Below are positions 1,961 through 16,295 of a stretch of DNA of 53,699 nt, in pieces (positions within the stretch are counted from its first letter, which is position 1; the number at the start of each line of letters is the position of its first letter). Below the pieces are notes generated by a model, which was not told the origin of the DNA, searched no databases, and worked only from the letters and a program-made list of their open reading frames with translations. Both the position numbers and the translations under genes were made by a program. Source of the stretch: Deltaproteobacteria bacterium (GTDB lineage Bacteria > Desulfobacterota > BSN033 > UBA1163); assembly GCA_016875195.1 (NCBI GenBank), contig VGRY01000023.1, positions 1 through 53,699 on the forward strand, read 5' to 3'.

Positions 1961-2022
1961 GTCATTCCGGGCTTGACCCGGAATCCAGTTTTTTTCTAGA
2001 TTCCTGCTTTCGCAGGAATGAC
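1961..2022. repeat. Intergenic palindromic repeat (GTCATTCC...GGAATGAC)
   Basis: The ends GTCATTCC (1961-1968) and GGAATGAC (2015-2022) are perfect inverted repeats. Each arm holds a smaller hairpin, TTCCGGG/CCCGGAA and TTCCTGC/GCAGGAA. This is the common GTCATTCC-type dispersed repeat of many bacteria. It fills the gcvPA-gcvPB gap, and an ATG at its right edge (2018) mimics a gcvPB start. Confidence 0.8.
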
Positions 2023-2041
2023 GACACATAAGGAAAACATC

Positions 2042-3595
2042 GTGAAAAAAATAAACGATACTGGTCTCATTCAAGATGAACCTCTGATTTTCGAGCAGGG
2101 AGGAGAGGGGAGGAGAGGATATTCCCTGCCCAAGTGGGATGTGCAAAAGGTAGAAGCCAAACAGGTCATCCCCTCCCATCTTTTAAGGAAGGAACTGACA
2201 GGCTTTCCTCAATTGAGTGAGGTGGATGTGGTTCGCCACTTCACCCGGCTCTCTCAGTGGAATTACGGTGTAGATAACGGGTTCTATCCTCTTGGTTCCT
2301 GCACGATGAAATATAACCCGAAAGTCAATGAGGAAGTGGCAAAAATAAGGGGGTTTGCTCAGGTTCATCCTTATTCCCCTCAAGAGATTTGCCAGGGCAT
2401 TCTGAAATTGATGTATGAGCTCGAGAACTATCTCGCAGAGATCACTGGGATGGATGATGTGACCCTTCAGCCTGCTGCCGGAGCGCATGGAGAGCTTGCA
2501 GGTTTAATGATAATTCGAGCCTATTTTCGGGATCGGGGAGAAAGAAGGAGCAAGATCCTTGTGCCGGATACCGCTCATGGGACGAACTGTTCCTCCTCAA
2601 CGGTCGCTTCCTTCCGGATGGTCGGGATTAAATCAAATGAGAAGGGCATCCTCAGCGCCAAACAGGTGGATGAGCAGATGGATGATCAGGTGGCTGCGAT
2701 CATGGTGACCAATCCTAATACCCTCGGTCTATTTGAGGAGGAATTGGGAGAGATTGCCAGGATTGTACACCAAAGGGGAGGCTTTGTTTACTGCGATGGC
2801 GCAAACCTCAATGCTCTGATGGGAATCGTCAAGTTAGGGGATCTCGGGGTGGATATGGTTCACCTCAACCTCCACAAAACCTTCTCTACGCCTCACGGCG
2901 GAGGAGGGCCGGGAGCCGGGCCCCTGGCAGTGAAAAAAGAGCTGACTCCTTTTCTTCCTGTTCCGGTGATTGAAAAAGCGGGAGAAACCTACCGATTCAA
3001 TTTTGATCTACCCAAGAGTATTGGAAAGATAAGGGCTTTTTATGGAAATTTCGGCGTGATGTTGAAGTCCTATGCCTATATCCTCTCCATGGGGGCAGAA
3101 GGTTTGAAGAAGGTCAGCGAGATGGCCGTGCTCAATGCCAATTACCTGATGAAGAGGTTAAAGGATTATTATCACCTTCCTTATGATTGGCCCTGTATGC
3201 ATGAGTGTGTTTTTACTGATCGGAATCAGGAAAAGTATCACATCAATACCCTTGACATCGCCAAACGACTGATTGACTATGGGTTCCATCCGCCCACGGT
3301 CTACTTTCCATTGGTAGTCAAAGGTGCGCTGATGATGGAACCTACGGAGACCGAGAGCAAGGAAGGACTTGATCGATTTATCGAGACAATGATTACCATT
3401 GCGAAAGAGGCAGAGGAAAATCCTGACCTTCTTCGTGAAGCTCCCAGTAGGGTGAAGGTAAGGCGGCTCGACGAAGTCCTTGCCGCCAGAAAACCGAAGT
3501 TGAGATGGACTGGGAAAAATCCCAATAACCAAATTCCAAATCGTAACTCCCCCTCCCCCCCTCTTAATTTAAGAGGGGGTTGGGGGGCGTTATGA
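2042..3595 (+). CDS. gcvPB: Glycine dehydrogenase (decarboxylating), subunit 2
   Basis: C-terminal, PLP-carrying half of the P protein. The PLP lysine is in the NLHKTFSTPHGGGGPG motif (Lys279 from this start). GSCTMKYNPK near residue 90 and PAAGAHGEL are further family signatures. I chose GTG 2042, which has an AAGGA site just upstream. The ATG at 2018 lies in the edge of the preceding repeat and adds eight unconserved residues. The C-terminus is odd: roughly the last 16 codons are read through a palindromic repeat (3544-3592), and the stop sits one base beyond it. The native end was probably near the RWTGKNP segment. Function should be unaffected, as the tail lies outside the conserved fold. 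Confidence 0.95.
   Translation: MKKINDTGLIQDEPLIFEQGGEGRRGYSLPKWDVQKVEAKQVIPSHLLRKELTGFPQLSEVDVVRHFTRLSQWNYGVDNGFYPLGSCTMKYNPKVNEEVAKIRGFAQVHPYSPQEICQGILKLMYELENYLAEITGMDDVTLQPAAGAHGELAGLMIIRAYFRDRGERRSKILVPDTAHGTNCSSSTVASFRMVGIKSNEKGILSAKQVDEQMDDQVAAIMVTNPNTLGLFEEELGEIARIVHQRGGFVYCDGANLNALMGIVKLGDLGVDMVHLNLHKTFSTPHGGGGPGAGPLAVKKELTPFLPVPVIEKAGETYRFNFDLPKSIGKIRAFYGNFGVMLKSYAYILSMGAEGLKKVSEMAVLNANYLMKRLKDYYHLPYDWPCMHECVFTDRNQEKYHINTLDIAKRLIDYGFHPPTVYFPLVVKGALMMEPTETESKEGLDRFIETMITIAKEAEENPDLLREAPSRVKVRRLDEVLAARKPKLRWTGKNPNNQIPNRNSPSPPLNLRGGWGAL
3544..3592. repeat. TAAC/GTTA C-rich palindromic element, copy A
   Basis: Starts TAAC and ends GTTA, with a central palindrome CCCCTCTTAA-ttt-AAGAGGGG. 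Related copies lie at 4408-4462, 34617-34671 and 40284-40332. This copy is translated as the C-terminus of gcvPB. Confidence 0.8.
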
Positions 3596-3643
3596 CATTG
3601 GTGCTTGGATATTGGTTATTCTACCGATTCAAACTTAGATAAT

Positions 3644-4318
3644 ATGGACAGAAAAGGATATATTGTCGACCTCGGCACAATGGATTACGCTAAGGCTTTG
3701 GACCTTCAGCACCTTCTCTGGTCGAGACGAGTGGAAGGGGAAGTACCAGACCTGCTCCTCCTCCTCGAACATCCTCATGTAATTACCCTTGGAAGACGTG
3801 GAGAACGTTCATCCCTCCTCATTTCCCCGGATGTTTTGGAGGCGATGAAAATTCCCATCTTCCACACGGAGCGGGGTGGTGATGTCACCTATCATGGCCC
3901 CGGGCAGATGATCGTCTATCCCATCCTTAACCTGAAGGAGTACGGGTATCGTCTCATTAGTTATGTCAGTGAGCTGGAGGAGGTGATCCTTTCTGTCTTG
4001 AGGGATTTCGGAATCGAGGGAAGAAAGGATTCGTCCAATCGAGGGGTCTGGGCTGAAAGTGCAAAGATTGCCTCGGTCGGCGTTGCGATCAAACACTGGG
4101 TTTCTATGCATGGACTTGCTCTGAATTATGCGACAGACTTGAAATATTTTGACCTGATCAACCCTTGCGGCCTTAAAAAAGTTAAGATAACTTCGATGGA
4201 AAAGATTCTTGGGAAGGAGATCCCTCGAGAAAAATTGCTTAAAAGTATCATCTTCCAGTTTCAGAAAGTTTTCAAGAGAGACTGGGAAGTAAAAGGATTA
4301 AAGGATATTGAAAAATAA
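3644..4318 (+). CDS. lipB: Lipoyl(octanoyl) transferase
   Basis: LipB moves octanoate from acyl carrier protein to the lipoyl domain of H protein and 2-oxoacid dehydrogenases, the first step of endogenous lipoylation. Visible motifs are EHPHVITLGRR near residue 45, ERGGDVTYHGPGQ near residue 75, and NPCGL, which carries the catalytic cysteine and is followed by the conserved lysine region KKVKITSMEK. The start is set at ATG 3644, giving 224 residues. An upstream TTG (3605) would add residues from repeat-like DNA. No strong ribosome binding site is seen at either start. Its place between gcvPB and lpdA, with lipA after, shows it serves the glycine cleavage H protein. Confidence 0.94.
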   Translation: MDRKGYIVDLGTMDYAKALDLQHLLWSRRVEGEVPDLLLLLEHPHVITLGRRGERSSLLISPDVLEAMKIPIFHTERGGDVTYHGPGQMIVYPILNLKEYGYRLISYVSELEEVILSVLRDFGIEGRKDSSNRGVWAESAKIASVGVAIKHWVSMHGLALNYATDLKYFDLINPCGLKKVKITSMEKILGKEIPREKLLKSIIFQFQKVFKRDWEVKGLKDIEK

Positions 4319-4515: not shown

Positions 4516-5916
4516 ATGAATCCAAAAAGATTAGTAATTATCGGTGGAGGGCCGGGTGGTTATGTGGCCGCGATTCGGGCGGCTCAATTAGGAGCCAAAG
4601 CGACCCTGATCGAAAAGGACAAGATCGGCGGGACCTGCCTGAATCGTGGATGTATTCCCACAAAAGCCCTTCTTCACGATGCAAGAACATTTCATTCCCT
4701 CAGAAACTCTCCTGTCTTTAAGACCCTTTCCGTTGATCCTTCAGGACTTCTGGAACCGATGATGGATCGGAAGAAGAAGGTAATTGAGGAGTTAGTAAAG
4801 GGTGTAGAAATATTACTCGAATCGCAACGGATCATGGTCAAAAAGGGCAGGGCCGATCTTATCAGCCCCAATCAGGTGATTCTCTTTGATGGTGAAGATG
4901 GGAAAGAAATCCTTGAAGCCGATGCGATCATTCTTGCTCCTGGTTCGAAAACAAAAGCCCTTCAGCATATTGTCCCGGATCATGAAAAAATCATCACCAG
5001 TGATGAGGCATTGGAGATTAAGAAGATACCTCGCGAATTGGTCATCATAGGTGGAGGTTATATTGGCGTTGAGTTTGCCACACTCTTTAACCTTCTGGGT
5101 TCAAAGGTGACGATTGTTGAGATTCTTGAAAACATACTTCCCGGTCTTGAAGGAGAATTAGTCCGGAATCTCAGACGGTTTCTGGAACGAGATGGAGTGA
5201 AGATTTTAACCCAATCCTCTGTGGAAGGGATTCAGGAGGGTGAGAATGGGTTGAGGCTTACGATAAAAACCCAGCAAGGTACCCAGGAGATAAATGCCGA
5301 AAAATTACTGATGGCTGTGGGAAGAGAGCCCAGCCTGGATCTGAATTTTTCAAAGGCAGGTATTGAAACCTCTCCCAAGGGAATTAAAGTCAATCGCCAC
5401 ACGGAGACAACATCTCCCAATGTTTATGCGATCGGAGATGCCATTGAGGGAATTATGCTTGCTCATGTAGCAATGGAGCACGGAATGGTGGCTACTGAGA
5501 ATGCAATGGGACTCGATCGGGAATGGAACTCACCGTTAATCCCCCTCTGCATCTTCAGCCATCCTGAAGTTGCTTCTATTGGTCTTACTGAGAAAGAGGC
5601 AAAGACGAAAGGAGAGATAAAGATCGGCCGATTTCCATTCCGATCCAATCCGAAGGCTGTGATCTCAGGGGAGACCGATGGTCTGATCAAAGTGATTGCG
5701 AATCGAGAAAACGACACCGTCTTAGGTGTTCACATCATCGGACCCGATGCCAGCGTTCTTCTCTCTATTGCATCAACAATGGTAGGATGTAAATTGAAAG
5801 AGTTTACGAGATTCATTCAAGCCCATCCCACGATTCCAGAAGCTTTGAAAGAGGCATGCCTCGATGCAGATGGCTTGGCGATTCATTTACCTAAACCGCT
5901 GCGACCAAAAGCATAG
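4516..5916 (+). CDS. lpdA: Dihydrolipoyl dehydrogenase (L protein)
   Basis: FAD enzyme that reoxidises dihydrolipoyl H protein and reduces NAD+. It shows the N-terminal FAD motif GGGPGGYVAA (residues 10-19), the redox disulfide in GGTCLNRGCIPTK (Cys41 and Cys46), the NAD motif GGGYIGVEFA, the second FAD motif YAIGD, and the C-terminal active-site histidine-glutamate segment AHPTIPEA. At 466 residues it is full length without a fused lipoyl domain. It lies in the gcv/lip cluster, so glycine cleavage is the likely main role, though L proteins are often shared with other lipoyl complexes. Confidence 0.96.
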   Translation: MNPKRLVIIGGGPGGYVAAIRAAQLGAKATLIEKDKIGGTCLNRGCIPTKALLHDARTFHSLRNSPVFKTLSVDPSGLLEPMMDRKKKVIEELVKGVEILLESQRIMVKKGRADLISPNQVILFDGEDGKEILEADAIILAPGSKTKALQHIVPDHEKIITSDEALEIKKIPRELVIIGGGYIGVEFATLFNLLGSKVTIVEILENILPGLEGELVRNLRRFLERDGVKILTQSSVEGIQEGENGLRLTIKTQQGTQEINAEKLLMAVGREPSLDLNFSKAGIETSPKGIKVNRHTETTSPNVYAIGDAIEGIMLAHVAMEHGMVATENAMGLDREWNSPLIPLCIFSHPEVASIGLTEKEAKTKGEIKIGRFPFRSNPKAVISGETDGLIKVIANRENDTVLGVHIIGPDASVLLSIASTMVGCKLKEFTRFIQAHPTIPEALKEACLDADGLAIHLPKPLRPKA

Positions 5917-6103: not shown

Positions 6104-6961
6104 TTGAGGAAACCTCATTGGCTTAAAAAACGCATACCTCCATATGAAGACCTCCTTAAAGTGAAGACTCTCCTGGATAAAGGAAGCCTCCACACGGTTT
6201 GTGAGGAGGCGCGGTGCCCGAACCTTGGAGAATGTTTTTCACAAGGGACAGCAACCTTCTTAATCTTAGGGGATGTCTGTACGAGAAATTGTGGATTCTG
6301 TGCTGTACAGCACGGAGCTCCTATTCTTCCAGCTGAAGATGAACCGAATAGAATTGCCAGGGCGGTTGTGGAGATGGGCCTCCATTATGTCGTTATTACC
6401 TCCGTGACCCGCGATGATCTTCCTGACGGCGGCGCCTCTTTTTTTGCGAGAACAATTGAGGCGATTCGAGAGCAGGGTCAAGGAATAAAGATTGAGGTAC
6501 TGATTCCGGATTTCAGGGGAGACCTCTCATCTCTTGAGACTGTCCTTCGTGCATCACCGGATGTCCTTAACCACAATATCGAAACCATCCAGCGGCTTTA
6601 TGCAGAAGTCCGGCCGCAAGCTGACTATAAGAGGTCTCTCAATTTATTAAAACAATCGAAAGACCTTTATCCTCAAATCCAGACCAAATCAGGGTTCATG
6701 CTCGGGCTGGGCGAGACTTATCAGGAGATCATCGAACTGATGGAAGACCTCAGAAAAGCAGAGTGCGACCTCCTGACCATCGGTCAGTATCTCCAGCCCC
6801 GTTCCGACCGGCTCCCTGTCGCGAGATTTATCCCTCCGGAAGAGTTTGAAGAATATAAGAAAATTGGAGAGGGCATGGGATTCCGGGTTGTTGCCTCAGG
6901 CCCCTTCGTTCGCAGTTCTTTTCATGCTTCCCAGATGTTTACGGAAACTCCAATTCAATAA
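6104..6961 (+). CDS. lipA: Lipoyl synthase (radical SAM)
   Basis: LipA inserts two sulfurs into octanoyl-protein to make lipoate. The auxiliary-cluster cysteines are Cys33, Cys38 and Cys44 (CEEARCPNLGEC). The radical SAM cluster is CTRNCGFC (Cys59, Cys63, Cys66). The C-terminal RSSFHA motif holds the serine that ligates the auxiliary cluster. The start is a TTG at 6104, with AGAAGG upstream; 285 residues matches the family. It closes the gcv-lip cluster and, with LipB, completes endogenous lipoylation of GcvH. Confidence 0.95.
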   Translation: MRKPHWLKKRIPPYEDLLKVKTLLDKGSLHTVCEEARCPNLGECFSQGTATFLILGDVCTRNCGFCAVQHGAPILPAEDEPNRIARAVVEMGLHYVVITSVTRDDLPDGGASFFARTIEAIREQGQGIKIEVLIPDFRGDLSSLETVLRASPDVLNHNIETIQRLYAEVRPQADYKRSLNLLKQSKDLYPQIQTKSGFMLGLGETYQEIIELMEDLRKAECDLLTIGQYLQPRSDRLPVARFIPPEEFEEYKKIGEGMGFRVVASGPFVRSSFHASQMFTETPIQ

Positions 6962-12555: not shown

Positions 12556-12827
12556 TAAGCCCTTTTGAGGGCGAGAGAAAAATTGCCAACAAAATAGACC
12601 TGACCCCGTGCTTTAACTGCGCGCCTTATCTCTAACGCTATGCCCTCCTTCGAACGATAGTCTACGTCGTCAAGGACCACACCCCGGTCAACATTCGTAA
12701 GTGGGGTCCATAATTTGCTGCCAACCTGTTTTGACCTCTTCGAAAAAACCAGCCTATTAAAATAGTTATCCAAATCTCGTCGAAAATATGTTAAAAGGTT
12801 AATGACTATCACGACAGGAGTTAAGGT
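12556..12827. other. Intergenic region with hairpin and repeat traces
   Basis: A small hairpin GCCCT-TTTG-AGGGC (12559-12572) follows the antitoxin gene without a T-run. The text around 12593-12608 (AATAGACCTGACCCCG) resembles repeats often found beside REP-associated transposases. A minus-strand open frame across the region matches no family I know and has no good start. A candidate promoter for the next gene is listed separately. Confidence 0.4.
12731..12760 (+). promoter_or_regulatory. Candidate promoter of the gcvT-SHMT fusion
   Basis: TTGACC (12731-12736), an 18-bp spacer, and TATTAA (12755-12760), about 67 bp before the ATG. The -35 box is good and the -10 box is weaker. Confidence 0.4.
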
Positions 12828-15542
12828 ATGCAAAAAGATTTAAAGCGGACGGAGCTGTTTTCCTGGCATAAGGAGCATGGGGCGCAGATGGTGGAGTTTG
12901 CCGGATGGGAGATGCCAGTCTCCTATTCAAAAGGCATCCTGGAGGAGCACCTGGCAACCCGAAAATACGGGGGCCTCTTCGATATCTCCCACATGGGGCG
13001 ATTCCTGATTTACGGAGAAGAAGCCATCCCATTCTTACAGCAGGTCCTGACAAATAATGTCCTTGCCCTGGAGCACGGCATGGCCCAGTACACCCTGATC
13101 CAGAATGAATGGGGCGAGGCCATTGACGATGCCTATCTCTATCGGCTCGATATCGGAAACCTCCCTTCAGAATCGAGATATCTTCTTGTGGTCAATGCCG
13201 CCAATCAGGAGAGAGACTGGAATTGGTTGATCGAGCATAAGAGGCGGTTCAGGGGCCTCATCCTCGAAGATAAGAGTGAGGAGATGGGAATGATTGCCCT
13301 CCAGGGCCCCGTTACTAAAAGGGTGCTGGAGAAGATCGTCATTGAAAGCCATTCCAAGCTTCCCGATCCCTGGAGGAATCGTTTGCGAGTTTGCGAGATC
13401 GAAGGAGTCCGGGTGGCTGTTACCGTCTCAAGAACCGGATATACAGGAGAACCCATCTGCTTCGAGCTCTTTTCTGAGAGAGAGAAGATGCGGATGATCT
13501 GGGAAGCGATCCTTGAGGTTGGAGAGAAAGAAGGAATTGTCCCTGTGGGCTTGGGAGCAAGGGACACCCTGAGGATAGAGGCAGGTCTTCCTCTGTATGG
13601 GCATGAATTGGGGATGGATCAGGAAGGAAAGGAGATTCCCATCTTTGCGGTTTATTCAGCTGGATTGGCAGTCAGCTTTTCTCCTTTGAAAGGGGATTTT
13701 ATTGGAAGAGGGGCGCTGCGGAGACAGTTTGAAGAATTAAAAGCAAGGACGGATGGAACTCCTCTGCCGCCCAGAGAGAAACAGGCCATTCCCAGAAGGA
13801 TTGTTCCCATTGCAGTAATCGGAAGTCAGGGCGGACAGGCGATTGCCAGGCAAGGTTATGAAGTCTTTGTGGATGGAAAGAAAGTCGGATATGTGACAAG
13901 CGGGACGATGATCCCCTACTGGAATTTCTCTGATGAAGGGATTCTTTCAAAGCCCACCGATGAAAAGGGGATGAGGGCTATTGCCTTAGCCTATATCGAT
14001 TCCGATTTTGAAGATGATCAGAGGATAGAGATTCAGCAGAGGGGGAAGACGATCGAAGGGATCATCGTAGAAAAGCATTTGTCCGGGGAGGCGCCTCCCT
14101 ATGCCCGGCCCATCCTTTTTCAGGAAAAGATTTTAAAGAAGCGTGAGCCGGCAAAAGAGTTGAAAAGTTCGGCTAAGAAGTTGATCGAGCGGGCAATCCA
14201 GAACACCCATTGGAGGCAGAGAGAGACGATTAACCTCATCCCTTCGGAACAGACTCCATCCTCCCTGGTCAGACTCCTCACAATCATGGACCCAGCGCAT
14301 CGGTATGCGGAGCACCGTGTTGTCAAAGCCCTTGGAGAAAGGGACATCTTCTATTATCAGGGGACGAAGTTAATTGAAGAAGTGGAGGCTCTTCTTGCAG
14401 ATGAGATGCGGGGCTATTTGGGATGCTCCGAAGTTGAGGCGAGGGTGATCAGCGGGCAGATGGCCAACACGGTTGTCTTCAGCGGTCTGATGGATTACGT
14501 TAACCGGCTCGATCGGAAGAGTGAGCCCCGAAGGATCAGGAAGGTGATGAATCATCATCTTGGAAGAGGAGGCCATCTCAGTGCACAACCCATGGGCGCC
14601 TTGAGGGATTTCATAGCCATTGATCCCCTGACAGAGAGACCGTCCGTTGTTCCTTTCCCGGTAATGAAAGACGATCTTTATCAGATCGATCTTTCAAAGA
14701 CAGAGGAACTTCTGGAAATTCATAAACCCGAATTGATCATCCTGGGCAAGAGCATGGTCATCTATAAAGAGCCTCTCAAAGAGATTACTCAGATGGCATC
14801 CAATATCAAACCGAGGCCGATCATCCATTATGACATGGCCCATGTGCTGGGATTGATCGGGCCCTATTTTCAGGAACCCTTTAAGGAGGGAGCGGATATC
14901 GTCACTGGCTCCACCCATAAAACCTTTTTCGGTCCCCAGAGAGGGGTCATCGGAAGCAACATGTCTGAGGGGACGGAATATGAGGACATCTGGGAGGCTA
15001 TTGTCCGTAGGGTTTTTCCAGGAAGTGTGAGCAACCATCATCTGGGGACCCTTTTAGGAATGCTCATGGCAGCCTATGAGATGAATACTTTTAAATCGGA
15101 ATATCAGAAGGCGGTCATCTCCAATGCCAAAGCCTTTGCCCGTTTCCTTAAGGATCAGGGATTATTGGTAGAGGGCGATCCGGAAAAAGGATACACTGAG
15201 ACCCATCAGGTGATCGTCAGGGTAGGTTATGGAAAGGGGCCAATCGTGGCTGAACGACTGGAAGAGAACAATATCATCGTTAACTATCAGGCCGCTCCGG
15301 ATGATGAGGCCTTCACTGCGGCCAGTTGTTTGAGAATGGGAGTCCAGGAAATGACCCGCTTCGGGATGAAGGAACAGGACTTTGCACAATTAGCAGAGTA
15401 TATGAGTGGGGTCATCCTTCATGGCCGATCCGTGGCTAAGGAGGTTGTTCAATTCCGGAAAAAATTTACAGAGATGAAATACTGTTTGCCGGATGAAGAG
15501 GCGAAATCAATGGTTGAGGGATTGTTGGAAGCGATAAAATAA
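12828..15542 (+). CDS. Aminomethyltransferase-serine hydroxymethyltransferase fusion
   Basis: A single 904-residue frame carries two enzymes of one pathway. Residues 1 to about 435 are GcvT: FSWHKEHGAQMVEFAGWEMP, LFDISHMGRF and the catalytic folate-site aspartate in AIDD (Asp100/101, aligning with Asp101 of E. coli GcvT). After a charged linker (about 440-460), residues 465-904 are SHMT: NLIPSEQTPSS, a RYAEHR segment, the GHLS motif, the PLP-contacting DMAH, and the PLP lysine in GSTHKTFFGP (Lys698). T protein makes methylene-THF from the H-bound aminomethyl group. SHMT uses it with glycine to make serine, or runs in reverse. No gcvT is seen in the gcv cluster, so this supplies T. The SHMT half is divergent from standard GlyA (for example SEQ in place of SEN) but keeps the key residues. 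Confidence 0.9.
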   Translation: MQKDLKRTELFSWHKEHGAQMVEFAGWEMPVSYSKGILEEHLATRKYGGLFDISHMGRFLIYGEEAIPFLQQVLTNNVLALEHGMAQYTLIQNEWGEAIDDAYLYRLDIGNLPSESRYLLVVNAANQERDWNWLIEHKRRFRGLILEDKSEEMGMIALQGPVTKRVLEKIVIESHSKLPDPWRNRLRVCEIEGVRVAVTVSRTGYTGEPICFELFSEREKMRMIWEAILEVGEKEGIVPVGLGARDTLRIEAGLPLYGHELGMDQEGKEIPIFAVYSAGLAVSFSPLKGDFIGRGALRRQFEELKARTDGTPLPPREKQAIPRRIVPIAVIGSQGGQAIARQGYEVFVDGKKVGYVTSGTMIPYWNFSDEGILSKPTDEKGMRAIALAYIDSDFEDDQRIEIQQRGKTIEGIIVEKHLSGEAPPYARPILFQEKILKKREPAKELKSSAKKLIERAIQNTHWRQRETINLIPSEQTPSSLVRLLTIMDPAHRYAEHRVVKALGERDIFYYQGTKLIEEVEALLADEMRGYLGCSEVEARVISGQMANTVVFSGLMDYVNRLDRKSEPRRIRKVMNHHLGRGGHLSAQPMGALRDFIAIDPLTERPSVVPFPVMKDDLYQIDLSKTEELLEIHKPELIILGKSMVIYKEPLKEITQMASNIKPRPIIHYDMAHVLGLIGPYFQEPFKEGADIVTGSTHKTFFGPQRGVIGSNMSEGTEYEDIWEAIVRRVFPGSVSNHHLGTLLGMLMAAYEMNTFKSEYQKAVISNAKAFARFLKDQGLLVEGDPEKGYTETHQVIVRVGYGKGPIVAERLEENNIIVNYQAAPDDEAFTAASCLRMGVQEMTRFGMKEQDFAQLAEYMSGVILHGRSVAKEVVQFRKKFTEMKYCLPDEEAKSMVEGLLEAIK

Positions 15543-15701: not shown

Positions 15702-16295
15702 ATGAAGATGAAAAAGAAACAGAATGGTCGTTCATGGGGGTTAATCGTTTTAGTATGTTTCATGGTGATCGTAGCAGGGGGCGTCTTTATCTCTCCAGGA
15801 TGTGCCAATCCTCCCAAAACACTTGATCGCTCAGTTCCAGGACCGCAGGTTATTGTGAACCCGGAAACGATCCGTCTTGGGGTTGCAAAGTTGATGGATA
15901 CCGTCATCGTTTTTGAAGGCTCCGGGTTTAAACCGGGAGACTCCATCTTTATTACCTTGCTCGGGCCCAATGAGACAAAGGCTATTGTGGCCGAAGGGCC
16001 CATTAAACCGGATGGAACGTTCAAGGTAGAGCTGGGCAAATCCTCTATAAACAAATTGACCAAGGCCATGGAAATTTTAAGGGCAGATATCGAACCCAAT
16101 GAAAAGTTTGAGCCGGTAGTGGTAATTAGCCAGCCCCCCATTCCCAAGGGCGTTTATACGGTGAAAGTCACCAGCATGATGTCGCCATTGACCGCTGAGA
16201 CGAAACTGGAAGTCAAAGGTCCAACGATCATCAATAGCGTGATAGATTGGATCGGAAAACTTACCGGTAAGATCAAACACAAGAAGACTAAATAG
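15702..16295 (+). CDS. Secreted protein with Ig-like fold, function unknown
   Basis: 197 residues. The N-terminus is a signal peptide (basic start, hydrophobic 13-30) ending SPGC. Cys34 could be lipidated, though the box is not canonical. The central part (about 60-165) has two stretches typical of IPT/TIG-like beta-sandwich domains, including VFEGSGFKPGDSIFITL and PKGVYTVKVTS. The basic tail (KIKHKKTK) may bind membrane or wall. No enzyme motif is visible. It starts after AAGGGGG and stands alone between two repeats. Confidence 0.6.
   Translation: MKMKKKQNGRSWGLIVLVCFMVIVAGGVFISPGCANPPKTLDRSVPGPQVIVNPETIRLGVAKLMDTVIVFEGSGFKPGDSIFITLLGPNETKAIVAEGPIKPDGTFKVELGKSSINKLTKAMEILRADIEPNEKFEPVVVISQPPIPKGVYTVKVTSMMSPLTAETKLEVKGPTIINSVIDWIGKLTGKIKHKKTK

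Follow-up and report, generated by a model that had tools for sequence, protein, structure and literature searches.

A gene that joins GcvT and serine hydroxymethyltransferase in one reading frame: distribution, relatives and predicted function

Glycine cleavage and serine hydroxymethyltransferase (SHMT) are coupled in photorespiration, and they are also coupled in the reductive glycine pathway for synthetic one-carbon (C1) fixation. The glycine cleavage system and the SHMT of E. coli carry out the two reactions as two separate proteins encoded by distant genes. A stretch of 53,699 nucleotides from a Deltaproteobacteria bacterium of the phylum Desulfobacterota (contig VGRY01000023.1 of assembly GCA_016875195.1; the whole stretch is called the window below) has a gene of a gcvT-glyA fusion type at positions 12828-15542 of the forward strand. 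The locus raises the question of what such a joined protein does and what the joining is for. We consider it likely that the gene encodes one bifunctional T protein/SHMT, which captures labile methylene-tetrahydrofolate (methylene-THF) where it is made. The bifunctionality appears well supported by the sequence, from which we infer both activities and the local capture.

The reading frame is a single one, uninterrupted from its ATG to its stop over 904 codons. An AGGAGT motif upstream of the ATG is a plausible ribosome-binding site, and the preceding in-frame stop is at 12822. The protein consists of GcvT, a short linker and SHMT, in this order. The folate-binding domain of GcvT occupies residues 11-264 (12858-13619; Pfam GCV_T, PF01571, 254 bits with a cut-off of 25.6). 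Its C-terminal barrel domain, residues 323-361 (13794-13910), is a partial match to the profile GCV_T_C (PF08669, 42 bits with a cut-off of 25.9). The linker region as used in our counts includes residues 419-448 (14082-14171) and is the least constrained part of the protein. The SHMT domain follows at residues 453-859 (14184-15404; Pfam SHMT, 127 bits with a cut-off of 27). The N-terminal half additionally exceeds the cut-offs of two NCBIfam GcvT models; the GcvT equivalog TIGR00528 gives 247.6 bits against a cut-off of 235.85.

The active sites were compared in an alignment of 34 fused proteins (P0001 and 33 from loci) with E. coli GlyA (NC_000913) and with canonical and archaeal-type SHMTs. 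Fourteen of the fused rows belong to the window's family or are 88-91% identical to the window protein. The residues Asp100-Asp101 of the GcvT half (13125-13130) are aligned with D97-D98 of E. coli GcvT, of which we take D97 to be catalytic, and both are D in 34/34 fused rows. The same holds for N123, Q159-G-P, G204-Y-T-G-E and G241-L-G-A-R-D, which are identical in all of these rows. In the SHMT half, Lys698 (14919-14921) corresponds to the pyridoxal phosphate (PLP) lysine K229 of E. coli GlyA and is K in 34/34 rows. The residues at the positions of E. coli S35, Y55, E57, Y65, H126, S175, D200, H203, H228, K229 and R363 are invariant as well (34/34); all of these apart from S175 presumably have PLP-binding or catalytic roles. 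Three residues differ from E. coli: R235 is changed to Q, R372 to F and N347 to Q. The positions of R235 and R372 also differ in archaeal-type SHMT rows. The initial annotation, made from the letters of the DNA, described a GcvT-SHMT fusion in one frame of 904 codons with both sets of catalytic residues intact, and this description is borne out by the Pfam domains and by D100/D101 and K698.

At E up to 0.001, SHMT and GCV_T each match a single frame of the window assembly (G000; 4.08 Mb in 187 contigs, 87% complete), and in both cases this is the fusion frame. Thus no separate glyA, for which the initial annotation recommended a check, was found in this genome. The same annotation suggested that the fusion replaces an absent stand-alone gcvT. 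This agrees with our data: the fusion is the only GCV_T match of G000, and gcvH, gcvPA, gcvPB and lpd are located in the same window, with gcvPB 9.2 kb upstream of the fusion. Therefore the fusion presumably supplies the missing T protein.

In a sample of 395 genomes of the phylum, 31 were found to carry the fusion in full length, in one frame and with no stops. Twelve of these belong to the window's own family (f1) and 19 to ten other families (f21, f23, f35, f51, f59, f70, f89, f91, f97 and f99); the sample includes 14 genomes of f1, and 31/395 is not to be read as a frequency. Four further copies are cut by contig ends (G013, G014, G064 and G214). Near relatives are labelled as metagenome-assembled genomes (MAGs) of Deltaproteobacteria, Syntrophaceae and Thermodesulfobacteriota. 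A gammaproteobacterial MAG (L011) also carries the fusion in this order, which we call forward, as do two of 343 genomes (G475 and G425) from the phylum of a record labelled Blastopirellula marina.

We examined 38 genomes with a forward fusion, 17 of f1 and 21 others; copies that are gapped or cut at a contig edge were counted in. In 27 of the 38 there is no SHMT besides the fused one. A GcvP-family match is present in 36 (the match in G005 is under the cut-off), and none was found in the other two, G006 and G012. Within f1 the fusion is the only GCV_T match in 5 of the 17 genomes. One more, G014, has no GCV_T match, and the beginning of its fusion copy is cut off by a contig end. In the remaining 11, a frame of 771-841 amino acids gives another GCV_T match; the only such frame checked, that of G005 (L051:208-2655), encodes a flavin adenine dinucleotide (FAD) oxidoreductase-GcvT protein and is not a stand-alone gcvT.

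Selection on the gene was assessed in four within-genus pairs by the ratio of nonsynonymous to synonymous polymorphism (pN/pS). The GcvT half has a ratio of 0.085-0.137 and the SHMT half one of 0.110-0.135, compared with 0.22-0.55 in the linker. These values suggest that both halves are under purifying selection and that the linker behaves like a tether. A chance open frame is ruled out by the selection data on both halves. There is no in-frame ATG between residues 395 and 486 of the window gene. The first in-frame ATG past the linker is residue 487, which is beyond the serine at 473, and the TTG codons at residues 418, 445 and 452 are possible internal starts.

We propose the following mechanism. 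The N-terminal half would act as T protein and move the aminomethyl carbon between lipoylated H protein and tetrahydrofolate (THF). The C-terminal half would be a PLP-dependent SHMT of an archaeal-related branch, which would convert methylene-THF and a second glycine to serine, or catalyze the reverse reaction. The short variable linker would tether the two sites, and methylene-THF formed at one of them could be caught by the other ahead of its dilution or its decay to formaldehyde. According to the excerpted text of PMC7227101, the methylene-THF that the E. coli glycine cleavage proteins form in vitro breaks down to formaldehyde, and SHMT added in trans keeps formaldehyde near zero. A tether would do the same as the added SHMT, at the place of methylene-THF synthesis.

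Several observations weigh against this reading. The NCBIfam SHMT model PRK00011 gives 248.4 bits, under its cut-off of 335. The position of E. coli N347 (residue 821 of P0001), which we take to be a folate-contacting residue, is Q in 31/31 rows of the fusion's SHMT branch (26 fused and 5 stand-alone or adjacent SHMTs) and N in the 25 other SHMT rows of this second set of 56 rows. The change may retune folate binding; it probably weakens the claim of an ordinary THF site and seems to leave the claim of an SHMT fold and a PLP site untouched. The AlphaFold model of the full protein is poor (mean predicted local distance difference test score 62.6, predicted template modelling score 0.54, 14 sequences), and for this reason the placing of the two sites cannot be read from it. 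Among solved structures, the SHMT half matches the L-threonine transaldolase 7k34 better than it matches the SHMTs of E. coli and of other non-archaeal sources. Besides the fusion, 11 of the 38 genomes have an ordinary SHMT (G064, G124, G245, G257, G267, G285, G304, G306, G315, G325 and G357). In 10 of 24 other fused rows (the count left out G425, where the motif is absent) a Met precedes the SHMT core by at most 75 residues, which makes an internal start possible in these proteins. Separate versions of the halves exist in G571, G401, G023 and G097, and therefore the tether is not essential. Finally, no biochemistry of the fusion protein was found in open-licence full texts of PubMed Central (PMC).

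The separate versions were found in several arrangements. Two of the 343 genomes mentioned above have separate neighbouring genes, with 41 bases from stop to start in G571 and about 200 in G401. In G401 the SHMT-side genome match reads back to query residue 329 through one TGA, and this copy may be a former fusion broken in assembly. An SHMT of the fusion branch is located apart from GcvT in L013, L014 and G097. In the family of G097 and G023 (L089-L092) the pair is apart. The GcvT and the SHMT that G097 has from the fusion branch are on different contigs, and this genome has another SHMT as well. From the fusion branch G023 has only the GcvT, and its one SHMT is archaeal-type.

Trees of each half, which the initial annotation recommended, gave supported branches with separate genes nested among the fusions. 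The supported branches in the quick trees hold neighbouring and stand-alone versions along with the fused ones (31 rows for SHMT and 34 for GcvT). In the GcvT tree, G571 and G401 group with the fused G357 (support 95), and G097 and G023 are placed among fused rows (97). In the SHMT tree the grouping of G571 and G401 with G357 has a support of only 81. A single-origin clade of the 26 fused rows and nothing else is rejected by the approximately unbiased (AU) test for the GcvT half (p-AU 0.012) and is not rejected for the SHMT half (p-AU 0.147). In the GcvT test 3 long-branch rows of 49 were dropped (two FAD-GcvT proteins and one gammaproteobacterial GcvT), and the long fused row G425 was kept. 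Since separate genes nest among the fusions, splitting or repeated joining has evidently occurred. One old fusion that was later split in places would be the simplest reading, and repeated joining is possible.

The two enzymes are also joined in the opposite order. In G041, G047, G078 and G019 an SHMT, a partial GcvT-like region and a full GcvT are encoded in one frame of 1085-1222 amino acids (L083:4105-7362, L084:4035-7571, L085:3690-7358 and L086:3585-6875). Only a part of the profile is matched by the middle region. The opposite-order frame of G113, 852 amino acids long, is cut by a contig end, and in G018 the two parts of the fusion lie at two contig ends. Altogether, this type was found in 6 of the 395 genomes, in three families (f3, f22 and f28), at E up to 1e-100. 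It directly follows gcvH-gcvPA-gcvPB in G041 and G078, and in G019, G047 and G018 it begins 1.1-1.5 kb after gcvPB on the same strand. Five opposite-order rows form one group with full support in the trees of both halves. Their SHMT groups with canonical SHMTs, at a long distance from that of the fusion in the window. As the opposite-order SHMT is on a different branch, the two joinings are independent.

The explanation that competes best with local capture is that both halves work as described and the link only fixes equal amounts and co-expression, methylene-THF being released to the bulk. We give this explanation a little less than an even chance. The variable and less constrained linker fits it, as do the separate neighbouring genes in G571 and G401 and the ability of free SHMT, added in trans, to remove methylene-THF in vitro (PMC7227101, excerpted text). 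Two independent joinings in opposite orders speak against it. A bolder version of the bifunctional reading goes in the other direction: the protein would be a glycine-to-serine synthase unit with direct handover of methylene-THF through a folate site retuned by N347Q, and it would have evolved at least twice, in opposite orders, because methylene-THF or formaldehyde that escapes control is costly to these bacteria. This version is rather doubtful.

Another alternative concerns the direction of the main flux. The C1 unit of formate could enter through Fhs and be converted to glycine by a reversed GcvT, and the SHMT half could then form serine, as in the reductive glycine route; the initial annotation had mentioned this direction. 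Fhs is encoded in 35 of the 38 forward-fusion genomes (none was found in G002, G015 and G167) and in 6/6 genomes with the opposite order. An ancestral reductive glycine pathway in Desulfobacterota was inferred in a 2026 study (PMC12827605, in the part of its text available). However, Fhs serves other routes too, the gene set is the same in either direction, and in the gammaproteobacterial MAG the overlap of the fusion with a creatininase-family frame looks catabolic. The presence of Fhs fits either flux direction, and we regard a mainly reductive flux as possible rather than probable.

The strongest rival for the second half is that it no longer carries out THF-dependent reactions and is now a threonine aldolase or transaldolase. 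Taken alone, the SHMT half matches the Methanococcus jannaschii SHMT at 179 bits, 7k34 at 106 bits and E. coli SHMT at 83 bits among solved structures, so that 7k34 is the second-best kind of match; the three rank in the same order in the sequence search that also gave the T proteins. A fluorothreonine transaldolase model with a cut-off of 650 bits matches the half at only 156 bits. The score below the PRK00011 cut-off and N347Q point the same way. However, the significant stretch of 7k34 is 159-442 of 465, about the last two thirds of the half, whereas the match of the M. jannaschii SHMT is both stronger and longer (16-449) and includes the region of Y55, E57 and Y65. Thus a transaldolase is not the nearest homolog of the SHMT half: the M. 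jannaschii SHMT ranks first. At the places of E. coli N345 and N347, 7k34 has T and I in the alignment (read by eye) where the fusion has N and Q. In addition, the catalytic residues of SHMT are invariant in 34/34 rows, 27 of 38 genomes have no SHMT other than the fused one, and the half is joined to a further folate enzyme. We consider this rival very unlikely.

An error of assembly or binning that joined two neighbouring genes, which the fragmented assembly of 187 contigs might suggest and which the initial annotation named as a possible refutation, is ruled out by the same junction in 31/395 genomes of 11 families and in G475, G425 and the gammaproteobacterial MAG, by the selection acting on both halves, and by the broken copy of G016, which has a run of N at the meeting point of its two frames.

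The bifunctional T protein/SHMT may be compared with several known systems. By sequence, the nearest solved structures are the T proteins 1yx2 and 1woo and the M. jannaschii SHMT (4bhd and 4uqv). A Foldseek search with the AlphaFold model gives the M. jannaschii SHMT with a template modelling (TM) score of 0.84 on the target, and weak matches to T proteins (TM about 0.5, root-mean-square deviation about 14). The GcvT half shares the family, the catalytic Asp and the folate-site motifs with ordinary T proteins (1yx2, 1woo and E. coli b2905), but in the fusion it is extended at the C terminus by an SHMT. Together with a few separate GcvTs, the GcvT halves of the fused proteins form a branch of their own. 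In the tree the SHMT half is placed toward the archaeal-type SHMTs and not with the canonical ones, and the archaeal-type SHMT of M. jannaschii is its best solved match both by sequence and by model. The archaeal-type rows have Q at E. coli R235 and N at G263 (10/10). In contrast to the archaeal-type SHMTs, the fusion branch has Q at E. coli N347, inserts and an N-terminal GcvT. The L-threonine transaldolase 7k34 has an SHMT-type fold.

Dimethylglycine dehydrogenase (4pab and 5l46) is among the fold matches of the fusion model. In this enzyme a GcvT-type domain is joined to another enzyme, so that the C1 intermediate meets THF. Its partner is an FAD oxidoreductase that makes the C1 unit, whereas the partner in the fusion would consume methylene-THF. 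Dihydrofolate reductase-thymidylate synthase and formiminotransferase-cyclodeaminase are other bifunctional folate enzymes with consecutive steps on one chain, but their reactions and folds are different.

The other glycine cleavage genes of the window are all on the forward strand. They are gcvH at 161-547 (TIGR00527, 154 bits, over the cut-off), gcvPA at 424-1917 (PRK00451, 640 bits; PF02347), gcvPB at 2018-3595 (PRK04366, 752 bits) and lpd, which encodes the dihydrolipoyl dehydrogenase or L protein, at 4516-5916 (TIGR01350, 494 bits). The frame of gcvPA overlaps the end of gcvH, and its true start is probably later. The lipoylation genes lipB (octanoyl transferase, 3605-4318; TIGR00214, 150 bits) and lipA (lipoyl synthase, 6104-6961; TIGR00510, 385 bits) lie in the same stretch. 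Downstream of the fusion, at 15702-16295 (+), the window encodes a protein of 197 amino acids without a Pfam match; a homolog is found close downstream of the fusion in many f1 genomes (e.g., L004-L010, L063 and L065).

In 8 of the 17 f1 genomes (G000, G002, G003, G004, G007, G008, G009 and G010), gcvPA or gcvPB is on the same contig, 5-16 kb from the fusion. Outside f1, gcvH, with or without gcvP, adjoins the fusion in at least 7 of the 21 genomes, in 7 families; this is a lower bound, as some loci were read with a flank of about 1.5 kb or less. The genes gcvH-gcvPA-gcvPB follow the fusion in G257 and G315, and gcvH follows it in G192. The fusion of G176 is followed by a gcvH-like gene, lipB, lipA and an lpd-like gene. 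Divergent from the fusion are gcvH-gcvPA-gcvPB in G285 and G304 and gcvH-gcvPA in G064. G245 has an lpd-like gene just upstream. No gcvH or gcvP was found in the stretches read around the fusions of G040, G077, G236 (f21), G124, G306, G325 and G357. No partner shared between families was detected by Pfam in 20 neighbour frames chosen from 10 loci without adjoining gcvH or gcvP.

In the gammaproteobacterial MAG the fusion frame (L183:6554-9289) overlaps the end of the creatininase-family frame (L183:5728-6564), which hints at catabolic use; the same MAG also has an ordinary gcvT-gcvH-gcvP cluster (L153). In G425 the frame directly after the fusion (L167:2870-5101) has a D-2-hydroxyacid dehydrogenase in its second half and no Pfam match in its first half; its start as read is tentative. 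This dehydrogenase is possibly a serine-pathway enzyme.

Among the matches listed for open-licence PMC full texts there was no paper describing a GcvT-SHMT fusion, in agreement with the initial annotation, which knew of none that treats it as a characterised enzyme. Since the literature search covered open-licence papers only, domain-architecture databases may already list the combination. The words "fused", "fusion", "bifunctional" and "chimer" are absent from the main text, as far as it was available, of PMC12827605, which deals with the reductive glycine pathway in Desulfobacterota, and the part of PMC10327494 at hand applies "bifunctional" only to carbon monoxide dehydrogenase/acetyl-CoA synthase. 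As a whole, the earlier interpretation is partly supported: its passing of the C1 unit between the sites and its direction toward glycine synthesis stay hypothetical. It does not include the joining in the opposite order, the forms with separate genes or the ordinary SHMT that 11 of 38 fusion genomes retain.

We conclude that the gene is a new fusion of two known enzymes, undescribed as far as we have searched. It is notable for its spread, for its role as the sole SHMT and T protein in G000 and for the independent case of the reverse order. As the SHMT half is under the NCBIfam cut-off, genomes with the fusion may appear in annotations as having no glyA. With separate enzymes it is difficult to find out whether methylene-THF moves freely or is passed on directly; fusions in both orders, together with naturally separate versions of the same branch, make this question directly testable. 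The fusions are also ready-made parts for formate-using strains. The same joining in other lineages suggests that keeping both steps together is useful.

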